Assembly (NCBI GenBank): GCA_913056235.1
Contig: CAJXMW010000005.1
Span: forward strand, 1-64,000
From: an uncultured Fodinibius sp.
GTDB taxonomy: Bacteria; Bacteroidota; Rhodothermia; Balneolales; Balneolaceae
Reading direction: 5' to 3'
Length of the DNA: 64,000 nt
Shown: positions 53,434 through 59,539 of the stretch, piece after piece
Position numbering within the stretch: position 1 is the first letter of the stretch
How the letters are laid out: each line of letters begins with the position of its first letter
Position numbers and translations under genes: made by a program
The notes under the pieces: model-generated
The model's input: only the letters and a program-made list of their open reading frames with translations
What the model was told of the DNA's origin: nothing
Database searches by the model: none

Positions 53434-53489
53434 TACTTTTTACACCAAAAATAATTTTTCTGCCCCTTGTGCGTATAAATATTTTGTAG

Positions 53490-53514
53490 TAACTTTGAAA
53501 TAAAAAGTACTTTG
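53490..53514 (+). promoter_or_regulatory. promoter -7 and AAAAGTACTTTG operator of the winged-helix operon
   Basis: TAACTTTG (53490-53497) is a -7 box (TAnnTTTG) and TTG at 53467-53469 is a possible -33. The 23-bp motif ACTTTG-N5-AAAAGTACTTTG (53492-53514) overlaps it and ends one nt before ATG 53516. The same motif at the same internal spacing precedes the gene at 54743. It is probably bound by the winged-helix protein encoded at 54137. The 5' untranslated region would be only about ten nt. Confidence 0.65.
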
Positions 53515-53515
53515 T

Positions 53516-54130
53516 ATGAAAGACCAACAAGATTACGTTCAGGATATAGCTGAGATACGCTCGATGATGGAGCGTTCTTCCAAATTTTTGTCGCTCTCCG
53601 GCTGGGCAGGCATCATGGCCGGTATTTACGCTTTAGCCGGAGCTTATATCGCGAATAATTTTTTAGGATATCAGCCTGACCAGCTGGTCCAATCAGAAAG
53701 TTTGGCCCCCGACTTGTGGAACGTCGTTCTTTTAGCGTTGGTGGTATTGATACTCGCAGTGGGAACGGCCATTTACCTTTCTTATAAAAAGGCCAGCAGA
53801 CGGGGCGAAAAAGCATGGAATGCTACTTCAAGACGGATGATTGCCAATATGGCGGTCCCGTTAGTGGTAGGTGGTATCTTGATACTAGTTCTACTTGCCA
53901 AGGGATTTGTAGGATTGATGGCCCCGTTGACGCTACTGTTTTACGGACTCGCTTTATATACCGCCAGTAGATTTACCTATGATGATATTAAGTTTTTAGG
54001 GCTGATCCAGATGGGCCTGGGGCTGGCAGGGTCCTATTTTATAGCATATGGCCTGCTGTTCTGGACTATCGGATTCGGCGTAGTCCATATCGTCTACGGT
54101 ACTTACATGCATTTCAGGTACGAACGGTGA
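53516..54130 (+). CDS. multi-pass membrane protein, first gene of the winged-helix operon
   Basis: A 204-residue protein with about five or six membrane helices (residues about 25-50, 67-90, 112-150, 160-182 and 185-200). It is six nt ahead of the winged-helix regulator gene. Similar membrane protein plus HTH pairs are common in Bacteroidota, where the function is unknown. A role in membrane-stress sensing is speculation. Confidence 0.75.
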   Translation: MKDQQDYVQDIAEIRSMMERSSKFLSLSGWAGIMAGIYALAGAYIANNFLGYQPDQLVQSESLAPDLWNVVLLALVVLILAVGTAIYLSYKKASRRGEKAWNATSRRMIANMAVPLVVGGILILVLLAKGFVGLMAPLTLLFYGLALYTASRFTYDDIKFLGLIQMGLGLAGSYFIAYGLLFWTIGFGVVHIVYGTYMHFRYER

Positions 54131-54136
54131 TTAACA

Positions 54137-54436
54137 GTGAAAATATCAATCGATGATTTACATAAGGCGTTCGAAAGCCGCGTGAGGCTCGGCATTATGT
54201 CGGCACTGGCTGTCAATGACAGCCTCGACTTCACCTCACTGAAAGAATTTCTGGATGTGACCGACGGCAACCTGGCGACTCACATCAAGAAACTGGAGGA
54301 GGAAGATTTTGTAGAAGTGGAAAAATCATTTATAGACAACAAACCCAATACGAAATACTATATGACGAAAAAGGGTAAAAAAGCTTTTAACGAGCATCTC
54401 AGCGTTTTGGAAACCATCATTAATTCAAATAAATAA
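54137..54436 (+). CDS. winged-helix transcriptional regulator (HTH_27-like)
   Basis: A 99-residue protein starting at GTG 54137, six nt after the membrane gene stop. FESRVRLGIMSALAVNDSLDFTSLKEFLDVTDGNLATHIKKLEEEDFVEVEKSFIDNKPNTKYYMTKKG is the classic winged helix of the PF13601 group: helices 1-3 (about 12-50) and a wing at about 60-75. It probably binds the AAAAGTACTTT motifs at 53492 and 54683, and so controls its own operon and the gene at 54743. Confidence 0.88.
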   Translation: MKISIDDLHKAFESRVRLGIMSALAVNDSLDFTSLKEFLDVTDGNLATHIKKLEEEDFVEVEKSFIDNKPNTKYYMTKKGKKAFNEHLSVLETIINSNK

Positions 54437-54451
54437 CTGATCTAAATTTCC

Positions 54452-54646
54452 ATGAAACCAGACATAAATAAAAATATAAAGGCGCAAAAGCTATTATCGG
54501 TTCTTATCACAGCAATCGGTATCGTACTGCTGGTATTTATGATAACAGTTGAAAGCGAACCGGGTGCTATCCCATTACTGCTGATTACATTTGGTACCGG
54601 ATGGTACTTCGTCACAAGATATAGAATTCAGTCGCGGCACACGTAG
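54452..54646 (+). CDS. small two-helix membrane protein
   Basis: A 64-residue protein with two membrane helices (about 16-35 and 40-58), charged at both ends. It lies 15 nt after the winged-helix gene in the same operon. No family is recognised. Confidence 0.65.
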   Translation: MKPDINKNIKAQKLLSVLITAIGIVLLVFMITVESEPGAIPLLLITFGTGWYFVTRYRIQSRHT

Positions 54647-54682
54647 CAGTACCAACTGAACCTGCAATTTTTTTACACATGC

Positions 54683-54705
54683 ACTTTGCAATTAAAAGTA
54701 CTTTT
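54683..54705 (+). promoter_or_regulatory. second AAAAGTACTTTT operator with ACTTTG box
   Basis: ACTTTG-N5-AAAAGTACTTTT with the same spacing as at 53492-53514; the twelve-base AAAAGTACTTTT is a perfect palindrome. It is 37 nt before ATG 54743 and directly follows the winged-helix operon, marking a second transcription unit under the same control. Confidence 0.65.
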
Positions 54706-54742: not shown

Positions 54743-55333
54743 ATGGATACGGATATCAAATTATTTAAAGCCGCTAAAGGGCCTGCGATTGTAACAGCAT
54801 TACTTTTATTAGTGCCTTTATCGTTTAAATTCTTTACCGCTGAAATGGCCTGGACACTGAGTGATTTTATTTCCGCAGGAGCCCTTATCTTCAGCACTGG
54901 TTTTGCGTATAAACTGATAACCCGCATACTGGAACCCCGAAGAGAAAATAGCATCATTTACCGGGTTGCAGTCGGCTTTGCACTATTTACCGGACTCTTC
55001 CTCATCTGGGTAAACCTTGCCGTCGGCATCATCGGATCTGAAGACAACGCCATAAACGGGTTGTATTTCTGTGTTATTTTTATCGGAATCATCGGTGCTT
55101 TTATAGCACGCTTTAAACCGAAAGGAATGTCGCTCACGATGTACGGAATGGCGATTACACAGGCGATAATAGCCATAATTGCACTTTTTAACGGTATGGC
55201 TGGGGCGACGGGCAGTTCCGCGTACGAAATACTGGCAGTAAATGGATTCTTCATCACACTTTTTGTTGTATCTGCGATAGTATTTCAATATGCCGCGCAA
55301 AAGCAAAAACCCGATAACGCAGAAGAAGCATAA
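54743..55333 (+). CDS. membrane protein with intact paralogue pattern
   Basis: A 196-residue protein with about six membrane helices. GFALFTGLFLIWVNLAVGIIGSED is shared almost exactly with the broken gene at 56563. The start ATG 54743 is preceded by GAGG. The family is common next to DUF4153 proteins in Bacteroidota, function unknown. It is 49 nt ahead of the DUF4153 gene. Confidence 0.75.
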   Translation: MDTDIKLFKAAKGPAIVTALLLLVPLSFKFFTAEMAWTLSDFISAGALIFSTGFAYKLITRILEPRRENSIIYRVAVGFALFTGLFLIWVNLAVGIIGSEDNAINGLYFCVIFIGIIGAFIARFKPKGMSLTMYGMAITQAIIAIIALFNGMAGATGSSAYEILAVNGFFITLFVVSAIVFQYAAQKQKPDNAEEA

Positions 55334-55382: not shown

Positions 55383-56492
55383 ATGACATTACTCAATCAC
55401 TTTCGCGAAAAAACAAAAACACACAAGGAGGCCATAATCGCCTTTACGCTTGCGGTGACAGTGGCCGTGTTCATCAAGTTGCCAGCACTCTTTGGGATCA
55501 CACTGGACCAGAATGAAGAGTTTTATATCCGCAATATGAGTTTCTTCGTTTTGCCCTTCCTGACCGGCTTTTTTGCCTGGAAACGACGGCTTGATACCCG
55601 TACCCTCTTCTGGCTGATATGCTCATTTGTTGGGGCGGGAATATTCGCCAATGTCTATCCATTCCATCAGGGCGGCGACACCGAGGCACTTCTGGCATTG
55701 CATCTGCCCATAGCACTTTGGTTAATAGTGGGCATTGCATTTTCGGGCGGCCGATGGAACCAAGTTAGTACGCGCATGGAGTTCATTCGATTCTCTGGCG
55801 AACTCTTTATTTACTACGTTTTGATAGCCCTTGGCGGTGCTGTTTTTTCTGGATTTATGGCCCTGATCTTCGGGACTATCGAGATCGATATAGAACCGTT
55901 CTTTGAATCATGGCTTTTGCCGTGTGGAGCGACCGGTGCAGTTATCATCGCCTCTTGGTTGGTGGAAACGAGGAATAGCATGACTCAGAATTTGGCTCCT
56001 GTATTGGCGCACCTCTTCATCCCCCTATTTACCGTAGTTCTGATCACTTTTCTGGGCACGCTGCTCTGGACCGGACGTGTTGTCGAGATAGACCGCAACG
56101 TGCTCATTGCGTTTGATATGCTCTTGCTGATGGTATTGGGACTTCTGCTCTATTCGATCTCTGCCCGAAATCCTCAGACGCCTCCCGGCGTATTCGATGT
56201 GATACAAGTTGTATTGGTGATTAGTGCACTGTTGGCAGATGCCGTGGCGCTATGGGCCATCTTAGAGCGCATCACTGAATTCGGTTTCACCCCGAATCGT
56301 GTTGCTGGACTCGGTATAAATGTGATACTTCTGGTCAATTTGGCGTGGTCCGCCGTACTCTTTACTCGTTTCCTGCGTGGACGCATTACATTCCCGGTTC
56401 TAGAACGATGGCAGACGAATTACCTGTCGGTTTATACCGTTTGGGCGGCAGTCATCGTAATCATATTCCCGCCCTTGTTTGGATTCATATAA
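55383..56492 (+). CDS. DUF4153 membrane protein
   Basis: A 369-residue protein with about ten membrane helices. The C-terminal part ERITEFGFTPNRVAGLGINVILLVNLAW and the ending VYTVWAAVIVIIFPPLFGFI are characteristic of DUF4153. The N-terminal part is shorter than in long members. The role is not known. It is in the transcription unit starting at the second operator. Confidence 0.85.
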   Translation: MTLLNHFREKTKTHKEAIIAFTLAVTVAVFIKLPALFGITLDQNEEFYIRNMSFFVLPFLTGFFAWKRRLDTRTLFWLICSFVGAGIFANVYPFHQGGDTEALLALHLPIALWLIVGIAFSGGRWNQVSTRMEFIRFSGELFIYYVLIALGGAVFSGFMALIFGTIEIDIEPFFESWLLPCGATGAVIIASWLVETRNSMTQNLAPVLAHLFIPLFTVVLITFLGTLLWTGRVVEIDRNVLIAFDMLLLMVLGLLLYSISARNPQTPPGVFDVIQVVLVISALLADAVALWAILERITEFGFTPNRVAGLGINVILLVNLAWSAVLFTRFLRGRITFPVLERWQTNYLSVYTVWAAVIVIIFPPLFGFI

Positions 56493-56562: not shown

Positions 56563-57135
56563 ATGAATACTGATAAATCATTAATAAAACCATCGCTAGT
56601 TTAGCAATTGCAACAGGGCTTTTATTGCTCATTCCTTTGGTTGCAATGCAGTTTTCTGGCGAAGTCGACTGGACATTGGCTGATTGGCTATAGCTGGAAC
56701 CCTTTTGTTGGTACCGGCCTTACTTATAAGCTCATCACAAGAAAGTCGGACAAAATTGATTACCAACTGGCCATTGGTTTTGCACTTGCCACGGGACTGT
56801 TTCTCATCTGGGTAAACCTTGCCGTCGGCATCATTGGTTCGGAAGATAATCCTATCAATATGCTGTATCTTAGTGTAATTGCTGTTGGACTGATCGGTGC
56901 CTTTATTGCCCGGTTTCAGCCAAATGGAATGGCCATAACGATGTTCGCAATGTCCCTTGCTCAAGCATTGGTAGCAACAATTGTCCTGGCCGGAGGCTAT
57001 TATCAAACTCCTCCTAGTACAGTTTCCCAAATTATAGTCATCAATGGTTTCTTTATGACACTGTTTATCGTATCAACGTTGGTGTTTCGTTATGCCGTTA
57101 GGGTATCTAGAAACTTGGATACTAATAACAAATAA
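56563..57135 (+). pseudogene. frameshifted paralogue of the 54743 membrane protein
   Basis: From ATG 56563, MNTDKSLIK is followed by a shift to TIASLAIATGLLLLIPLVAMQFSGEVDWTLAD, a second shift to IAGTLLL, and a third to TGLTYKLITRKSDKIDYQ...LIWVNLAVGIIGSED...FRYAV in the frame that stays open to 57135. All parts align with the protein at 54743. The 3' two thirds are open (an apparent ORF from 56608), but the N-terminus is broken at least three times. Confidence 0.8.
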
Positions 57136-58913: not shown

Positions 58914-59120
58914 TTATGAATTAGTCTCTGCTCCGTCCTCAAAAATTTGCTCGATAGGCTGATCAAACAGCCGCGATATCTTGAAAGCCAACGGTAAGCT
59001 GGGATCGTATTTCCCCGTCTCAATCGCATTCACGGTTTGCCGAGATACTTCCAATTTTTCAGCAAGATCCGCCTGCGTCCAATCGCATTCAGCCCGTAGC
59101 ACTTTTAGCCGGTTTTTCAT
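58914..59120 (-). CDS. XRE-family transcriptional regulator (small, YozG-like)
   Basis: A 68-residue Cro/CI-type HTH protein: LKVLRAECDWTQADLAEKLEVSRQTVNAIETGKYDPSLPLAFKISRLFDQPIEQIF. Its ATG overlaps the stop of the membrane-protein gene (four nt), so the two are translationally coupled. In such pairs the membrane partner may modulate the regulator. The palindrome at 59564-59579 is a likely binding site. Confidence 0.93.
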   Translation of the reverse strand: MKNRLKVLRAECDWTQADLAEKLEVSRQTVNAIETGKYDPSLPLAFKISRLFDQPIEQIFEDGAETNS

Positions 59121-59539
59121 CGGTACCTCCGCAGGTTTACTGCAATTGATGTTAAATAGACGAGGCCAACTAAAATAACCAGATGAGCTATCTCAGCGTC
59201 AAAAGGAATAAAGTTGGTGGTATCGAGAAGCGAATAACTAAGTCCTGCCACGATGGCTACGCCCAACGACAAGCCCATCACTTCAAGTTGAATCTTCTTC
59301 ATCAGTTCATCCAGTACATTCAAGTGCTGGATATTTACCAAGATCATCCCGATGCCAGCTAGCAGATTTAGGATAATAGCTCCGATTGTAAGTAGCTGGT
59401 TGTAATCCCATAACAGTCTTGGTCCAAAGTTAGCCACTGCCATTGTCGCAACATAGGCTCCCGACCAATATGCCAGACGGTAAATAAGTCGATTCTTGCG
59501 CGTGGACCAATCCTTCGTTTTAGCATTCTTATTGTTCAT
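59117..59539 (-). CDS. membrane partner of the XRE regulator
   Basis: A 140-residue protein with four membrane helices (about 24-42, 49-68, 85-105 and 118-135) and the loop LDELMKKIQLEVMGLSLGVAIVAG between helices two and three, which is typical of proteins encoded ahead of small YozG-type regulators. Start ATG 59539. The role is unknown; control by the downstream regulator is expected. Confidence 0.82.
   Translation of the reverse strand: MNNKNAKTKDWSTRKNRLIYRLAYWSGAYVATMAVANFGPRLLWDYNQLLTIGAIILNLLAGIGMILVNIQHLNVLDELMKKIQLEVMGLSLGVAIVAGLSYSLLDTTNFIPFDAEIAHLVILVGLVYLTSIAVNLRRYR

Follow-up and report, generated by a model that had tools for sequence, protein, structure and literature searches.

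A putative autoregulatory operator of three half-sites at an HTH_34 regulator locus kept in Bacteroidota, Balneolota and Ignavibacteriota

The window analysed here, a stretch of 64,000 nucleotides from an uncultured Fodinibius sp., carries two neighbouring units on its plus strand. Operon 1 starts with the gene for a membrane protein of 204 residues (MP204; 53516-54130), continues with that for a 99-residue winged-helix regulator (WH; 54137-54436) and ends with that for a small, probably membrane, protein of 64 residues (P64; 54452-54646), while unit 2 starts with the gene for a 196-residue membrane protein (MP196; 54743-55333) and contains that for a 369-residue membrane protein (MP369; 55383-56492). 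The name DUF4153, under which the first-pass annotation had listed unit 2, sits loosely on MP369, which scores E = 6.2 and 6.3 bits against PF13687, under the gathering score of 27, and is at best distantly DUF4153-like; a relative at locus L113 scores E = 0.00082 and 19.1 bits, likewise under the cut-off of 27. Another MP196-like gene, with 55% identity to MP196 in the aligned part, occupies 56563-57135; its apparent ATG at 56563 runs into a stop after 13 codons, and the gene looks like a decayed duplicate. The window also holds a second regulator-plus-membrane-protein pair, on the minus strand at 58914-59539, in which the gene for a small HTH_3 regulator overlaps that for a 140-residue, probably membrane, protein.

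WH is assigned to the HTH_34 family (PF13601) by profile match, structural model and fold search. In the Pfam scan it covers positions 1-80 of the 80-position profile with E = 4.8e-27 and 94.4 bits (cut-off 27), and the other HTH_34 matches in the genome of the window reach at most 28.8 bits. Its AlphaFold2 model (mean pLDDT 88.1) has a winged-helix fold, for which the top Foldseek match is 1ub9 (E = 1e-5), also the best sequence match among solved structures. The MarR (PF01047, 25.7 bits) and ArsR (PF01022, 26.8 bits) profiles are matched above their gathering scores of 24.6 and 22, respectively, but far more weakly than HTH_34; the PadR match (PF03551) stays at 22.1 bits, under the gathering score of 27, and the NCBIfam models listed for WH all remain below their cut-offs.

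For comparison we used the best 80 of 373 relatives, picked by regulator similarity alone, which together with the window make 81 loci. By record title, these best 80 include Balneolaceae, Gillisia, Salinimicrobium, Flavobacterium, Parapedobacter, Litoribacter, Rufibacter, Niastella, Bacteroidales and Ignavibacteriae. An MP204 gene accompanies the regulator in all of these 80 loci and a P64-like gene in 18 of the 80. The model of MP204 has an N-terminal helix (residues 2-20) followed by six long predicted helices, with a mean pLDDT of 84.7 that falls to only 60-64 over residues 1-30. The N-terminal helix is conserved: among the 75 relatives that entered the count (MP204 starts were inferred by alignment, and six of 81 that were mis-set were left out), residues 13-29 are 83-100% conserved, and residues 11-30 average 90% identity to the consensus, above every other ten-residue block. 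The fold search gave no match for MP204 at E <= 0.001 and the Pfam scan no HAAS match.

A pattern scan of the window recovered the two copies of ACTTTG-N5-AAAAGTACTTT(G/T) that had drawn attention to this locus, at 53492-53514 (site 1) and 54683-54705 (site 2), both on the plus strand and with equal spacing. When up to three mismatches are allowed, the window contains three matches against 0.14 expected, a number reached in none of 100 shuffles; the third is a minus-strand reading that overlaps site 2. A scan of the whole genome (3.97 Mb, nine contigs), as the first-pass annotation had proposed, returned exactly two exact matches to ACTTT-N7-AAAGTACTTT, both at this locus and flanking the regulator. 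Allowing up to two mismatches gives 24 places in the genome, compared with 34 when the control pattern is reversed, and hence no enrichment of weaker matches. Because matches with one or two mismatches do not exceed this control and 19 of the 21 such places examined lie inside open reading frames of at least 70 residues, we rejected a wider regulon in the organism's own genome. The MP196-like gene at 56608-57135 was likewise rejected as a third unit, having no motif upstream of it in the window.

Site 1, as ACTTT-N7-AAAGTACTTT with at most one of 15 letters off, precedes the regulator operon in 81 of 81 loci (the best 80 of 373 plus the window), 72 times exactly, and with alignment-inferred starts it ends 2 nt before the start codon in 36, 3 nt before it in 26, and at most 19 nt before it in 80 of the 81. 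Site 2, with up to two mismatches and at most 1.5 kb after the regulator, is found in 67 of the same 81 loci, a number that includes one plainly chance match (L139), and is missing by this criterion in 14; the logo of site 2 was built from the 71 of 81 loci with up to three mismatches, the counts below from the 67. Elsewhere on the plus strand of the 81 loci, four of 550,058 positions match at up to two mismatches, and some of these may be sites. In the organism's own family, 30 regulator loci, partly from the same genomes, have AAAGTACTTT just before MP204 in 30 of 30 cases. Sequence comparison shows the arrangement to persist alongside the regulator in loci of Bacteroidota, Balneolota and Ignavibacteriota.

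The logos resolve the operator into three half-sites, namely an inverted repeat CTTTG-N5-CAAAG, whose half-site centres are 10 bp apart, and a third half-site, CTTT, in opposite orientation and abutting the repeat. In the window, the half-sites of site 1 are CTTTG at 53493-53497, AAAAG at 53503-53507 and CTTTG at 53510-53514. The two sites are conserved in different parts: AAAGTACTTT is strict at site 1 (78 of 81) and looser at site 2 (29 of 67), whereas an exact ACTTTG-N5-CAAAGT occurs in 22 of 81 copies of site 1, where the C of CAAAG is lax, against 48 of 67 copies of site 2; the third half of site 2 reads CTTT in 57 of 67. A fourth half-site 10-11 bp past the third was considered and rejected, as neither logo has a conserved CAAAG there. 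The earlier description had the two motif copies right but overlooked the third half-site as well as the two differing promoter contexts described below, and the perfect palindrome that it reported exists over 12 bp at site 2 (AAAAGTACTTTT) but at site 1 only as the 10-bp AAAGTACTTT.

In Bacteroidetes, the -7 element for sigma-A has been described as TAHHTTTG, its G being at -5 and transcription probably starting 4-5 nt beyond the element (PMC6847099). Site 1 fits such a promoter, for which TTG or TTTG is expected about 19 nt before TAnnTTTG, and the first half of the operator is the TTTG of the predicted -7 element. In the window the -33-like TTG is at 53467-53469, 20 nt before the -7 element TAACTTTG at 53490-53497. 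Among the 81 loci (best 80 of 373 plus the window), TTG at a spacing of 17-23 nt is present in 78, and the -7 element takes the form TAnnTTTG in 43 and TAnTTTG in 32, thus either form in 75. That the motif overlaps the -7 box, as first proposed, stands for site 1, but the position and leader need correction: with the G placed at -5 according to the published sigma-A register (PMC6847099), transcription is predicted to start at about 53502, leaving a leader of about 14 nt rather than 10. Predicted leaders are 14-15 nt in 62 of the 81 loci. In F. psychrophilum, the 5' UTR is reported to have a median of 24, and 5.5% of mRNAs to be leaderless (PMC9723704); measured against these figures, the leader of operon 1 is short rather than leaderless.

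Our reading of the locus, to which we assign a probability of about three in four, is that WH acts as an autorepressor of its own operon and as a repressor of the neighbouring membrane-protein unit through both motifs. Winged-helix dimers in general behave in a way that would let a WH dimer read the inverted repeat CTTTG-N5-CAAAG, the half-sites of which are about one helical turn apart, and the abutting CTTT might allow a further dimer or subunit to bind next to it. As expected for an autorepressor, the operator at site 1 overlaps the regulator's own predicted promoter; because it covers the TTTG of the -7 element and reaches almost to the start codon, WH bound there would exclude RNA polymerase and so repress its own synthesis, while site 2 would put the next membrane-protein unit under WH control. 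Autoregulation combined with a two-unit membrane-protein regulon had been suggested from the window alone, and comparison lends support to both parts, with two exact sites in the genome and an arrangement kept across lineages.

The context of site 2 is different. Reading the register of ACTTTG only, a TTG at 17-23 nt is present in one of 67 copies, and in the logo the TA expected in a -7 box is not conserved; because neither a -33 element nor this TA is recognisable, the promoter and the sign of regulation at site 2 are uncertain. What most copies of site 2 have is an A/T-tract, in the window AATTTTTTT at 54666-54674, which reads AATTTTTTT or AAAAAAATTT and ends 8 nt before ACTTTG. Nine A/T positions at -16 to -8 are present in 59 of 67 copies of site 2 (one exception being L170) against eight of 81 copies of site 1, and across loci L108-L187 the tract precedes most copies of site 2 at the fixed 8-nt distance and is rare at site 1. 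Placed in the -7 register of site 1, the tract would extend from about -27 to -19; AT-rich motifs with their centres at -18 and -28 are mentioned in PMC6847099, and the tract may stand in for the -33 element at site 2. We also considered that the tract might be part of an intrinsic terminator and rejected this, since folding over the 67 sites revealed no hairpin ahead of the tract, with a mean z of -0.19 against mononucleotide shuffles, structures below -6 kcal/mol occur in eight of 67, and A7TTT variants of the tract (the AAAAAAATTT form) also occur. For a terminator in which bound repressor is the roadblock and the T-tract supplies the U-rich hybrid, the evidence is not decisive, although the A-run variants make it less likely; T-tract sites nearly always lie behind a co-directional gene because site 2 comes after the regulator, and at the orphan copy in L242 the nearest co-directional gene is about 370 nt upstream of the motif.

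These features give some room to a reading in which WH activates one or both units by recruiting or positioning RNA polymerase, with site 2, devoid of a -33 element, depending on WH. With TTG in one of 67 copies and no conserved TA, site 2 does look too weak to work alone. Site 1 argues in the other direction, because its operator overlaps the -7 element and extends downstream from it, the position of a repressor, and because its promoter, with TTG in 78 of 81 loci, is near consensus by itself. We consider activation rather unlikely and repression the better account.

At the level of whole genomes, the motif was searched for in three sets (the totals 77 and 15, 75 and 4, 43 of 44, 6 of 48 and ~49 were added up by hand from tables). 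A set of 128 genomes from the order contains 77 exact places, compared with 15 for the reversed-pattern control, so the motif is not one that occurs frequently and unrelated to genes of this type, the outcome that the first-pass annotation had named as speaking against it. In 29 genomes of the named loci (L165 left out), ACTTTG-N6-AAAG-NN-CTTT has 75 exact places against 4 for the control, mostly paired at a distance of about 1 kb. An exact match to this pattern occurs at least once in 162 of 394 genomes sampled over the phylum, and as the reversed control is matched in ~49, an appreciable part of the single matches in this sample may be chance.

When 11 regions of the order with the motif away from the module were opened, seven proved to precede an MP196-, MP369- or DUF4153-like gene, one lies by a distant regulator paralog, one before a DoxX-like gene and two before no called gene. 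Six genomes of the family have the motif and no close regulator. In three of them (G083, G086 and G088, assemblies 63-89% complete) it stands before a DUF4153-like gene, in G015 (98% complete) before an MP196 gene, and the remaining two share an almost identical sequence in which no gene was called downstream of the motif. The four genomes with a gene after the motif and no regulator found imply either that another regulator may use the motif or that the regulator was lost or missed. The MP196 gene of G015 (L242:7145-7802) has both tract and operator, which would fit a lost regulator as well as a different controlling protein. In genus g19, the motif precedes DUF4153-like genes at L236, L237, L238 and L241 with no close regulator beside it; L236 has one very weak regulator match (E = 0.002). 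Of 18 extra motif regions opened in other lineages, nine have the regulator beside the motif and nine do not, which indicates that the regulon is not always just two units; among the nine without it, two are before DoxX-like genes, two have CreD further on and five have no recognised target, including L234, probably a chance match. In a Flavobacterium genome, two tandem operators with starts 56 bp apart (L229:2544-2621) stand ahead of an unnamed gene, beyond which a CreD gene follows.

Such copies without a regulator beside them (the nine of 18, and those before DUF4153-like and MP196 genes), together with the resemblance of ACTTTG to a -7 element, would fit a motif that belongs to some other DNA-binding protein or to a sigma-factor variant, with the HTH_34 protein merely sharing the operon. 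The motif nevertheless follows the presence of the regulator, as it is found in 43 of 44 family genomes with a close regulator (E < 1e-30) against six of 48 without, the single exception, G084, lacking an exact motif and having an MP204 match that spans only residues 122-204. It is also present again at loci of paralogous regulators, and its length, which much exceeds that of a promoter box, and its sparsity of ~2-3 per genome (75 places, 29 genomes) are unlike a sigma-factor site. We judge a foreign owner of the motif improbable. Still less credible is an RNA element, in which the motif would form a 5' UTR hairpin (ACUUUG/CAAAGU) and influence translation. Pairing between the arms of the inverted repeat is conceivable, and in 62 of 81 loci the end of site 1 is 2-3 nt ahead of the start codon, but the half-sites are nearly fixed with no covariation to speak of, and transcription is predicted to start downstream of the first half of site 1, which would therefore be absent from the RNA.

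Paralogous MP204-regulator modules, each with its own motif pair, were found at six loci (L218, L219, L220, L221, L222 and L233). Their regulators are 48-58% identical to WH and keep the predicted recognition helix TDGNLA(S/T)H unchanged. Their operators end in GTGCTTT or GCACTTT, in one case in GCGCTTT, and GTACTTT is retained in a single pair; the half-sites stay and the third part is altered (GTG, GCA or GCG before CTTT) in five of the six modules. A CreD gene lies downstream of the paralogous module in L218 and L233.

The common theme of the target genes is the envelope. In 63 of the 66 loci other than the window (from the best 80 of 373), site 2 is followed by a called gene; this gene encodes a 110-residue protein in 22, a DUF4153-like protein (the wider MP369 family) in 20, an MP196 relative in 17, CreD in two (for the one scanned, PF06123 with E = 7.3e-132), and a DoxX-like and an MpaB-like protein in one each. 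More speculatively, MP204 could relay an envelope signal by holding or releasing WH. Taken further, the module could be an ancient one-component envelope switch in Bacteroidota, Balneolota and Ignavibacteriota, in which MP204 would sense the membrane with its helix bundle and capture WH with its near-invariant N-terminal helix (consensus EIRSMMERSSKFLSLSG), and in which WH, captured or released, would set two unlike promoters, one with a -33 TTG and one with a phased A/T-tract, through one three-half-site operator, such that operon 1, with sensor and regulator, and unit 2, with the effector membrane proteins, differ in threshold. We put this forward tentatively, as a possibility that we would not bet on.

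If the autorepressor reading is right, the HTH_34 family, for which we found no described target, would have its operator defined exactly, together with a small regulon and a membrane partner, in a module whose gene order is kept across three phylum-level groups (NCBI taxonomy). With ~2-3 sites per genome, few experiments would go far toward the function of MP204, MP196, the 110-residue and the DUF4153-like proteins, and the contrast of sites 1 and 2 would provide a natural setting in which to compare -33-dependent with A/T-tract promoters governed by the same regulator. In the open-access literature we found no description of an operator or regulon for HTH_34 (PF13601), nor of the operator or regulon of WH. 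Among the matches listed, no paper was by title on the subject of AAAGTACTTT or, for CreD, to the point, and CAAAGTACTTT occurred in none of the matches for motif plus lineage.

The nearest relative of known structure is PH1061 of Pyrococcus horikoshii (PDB 1ub9), which is like WH in its HTH_34 domain and is its best match by sequence and fold. In the manner of action that we propose, the locus resembles the MarR, ArsR and PadR autorepressors, small winged-helix proteins with an inverted-repeat operator over their own promoter, and the folds of Rv3488 (PadR) and YusO are among the best fold matches of WH. It differs from them in that the WH operator has an abutting third half-site and the partner is a conserved membrane protein, and the PadR model itself stays below its cut-off. 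In Firmicutes there are PadR regulators paired with HAAS-domain membrane proteins; as in those pairs, the regulator gene here adjoins that of a membrane protein that may control the regulator, but MP204 has no HAAS match, and gene content and operator differ. The CreBC regulon of Escherichia coli has creD as a target, and CreD-like genes lie within six of the 80 named loci (best 80 of 373) as well as by some of the paralogous or distal copies of the motif; unlike CreBC, WH is a one-component HTH_34 protein rather than a two-component system, and CreD was not found in the genome of the window. From its sequence features, then, the locus appears to represent a known kind of system, the autoregulated small winged-helix protein, set apart by its three-half-site operator, its two promoter contexts and its membrane partner.
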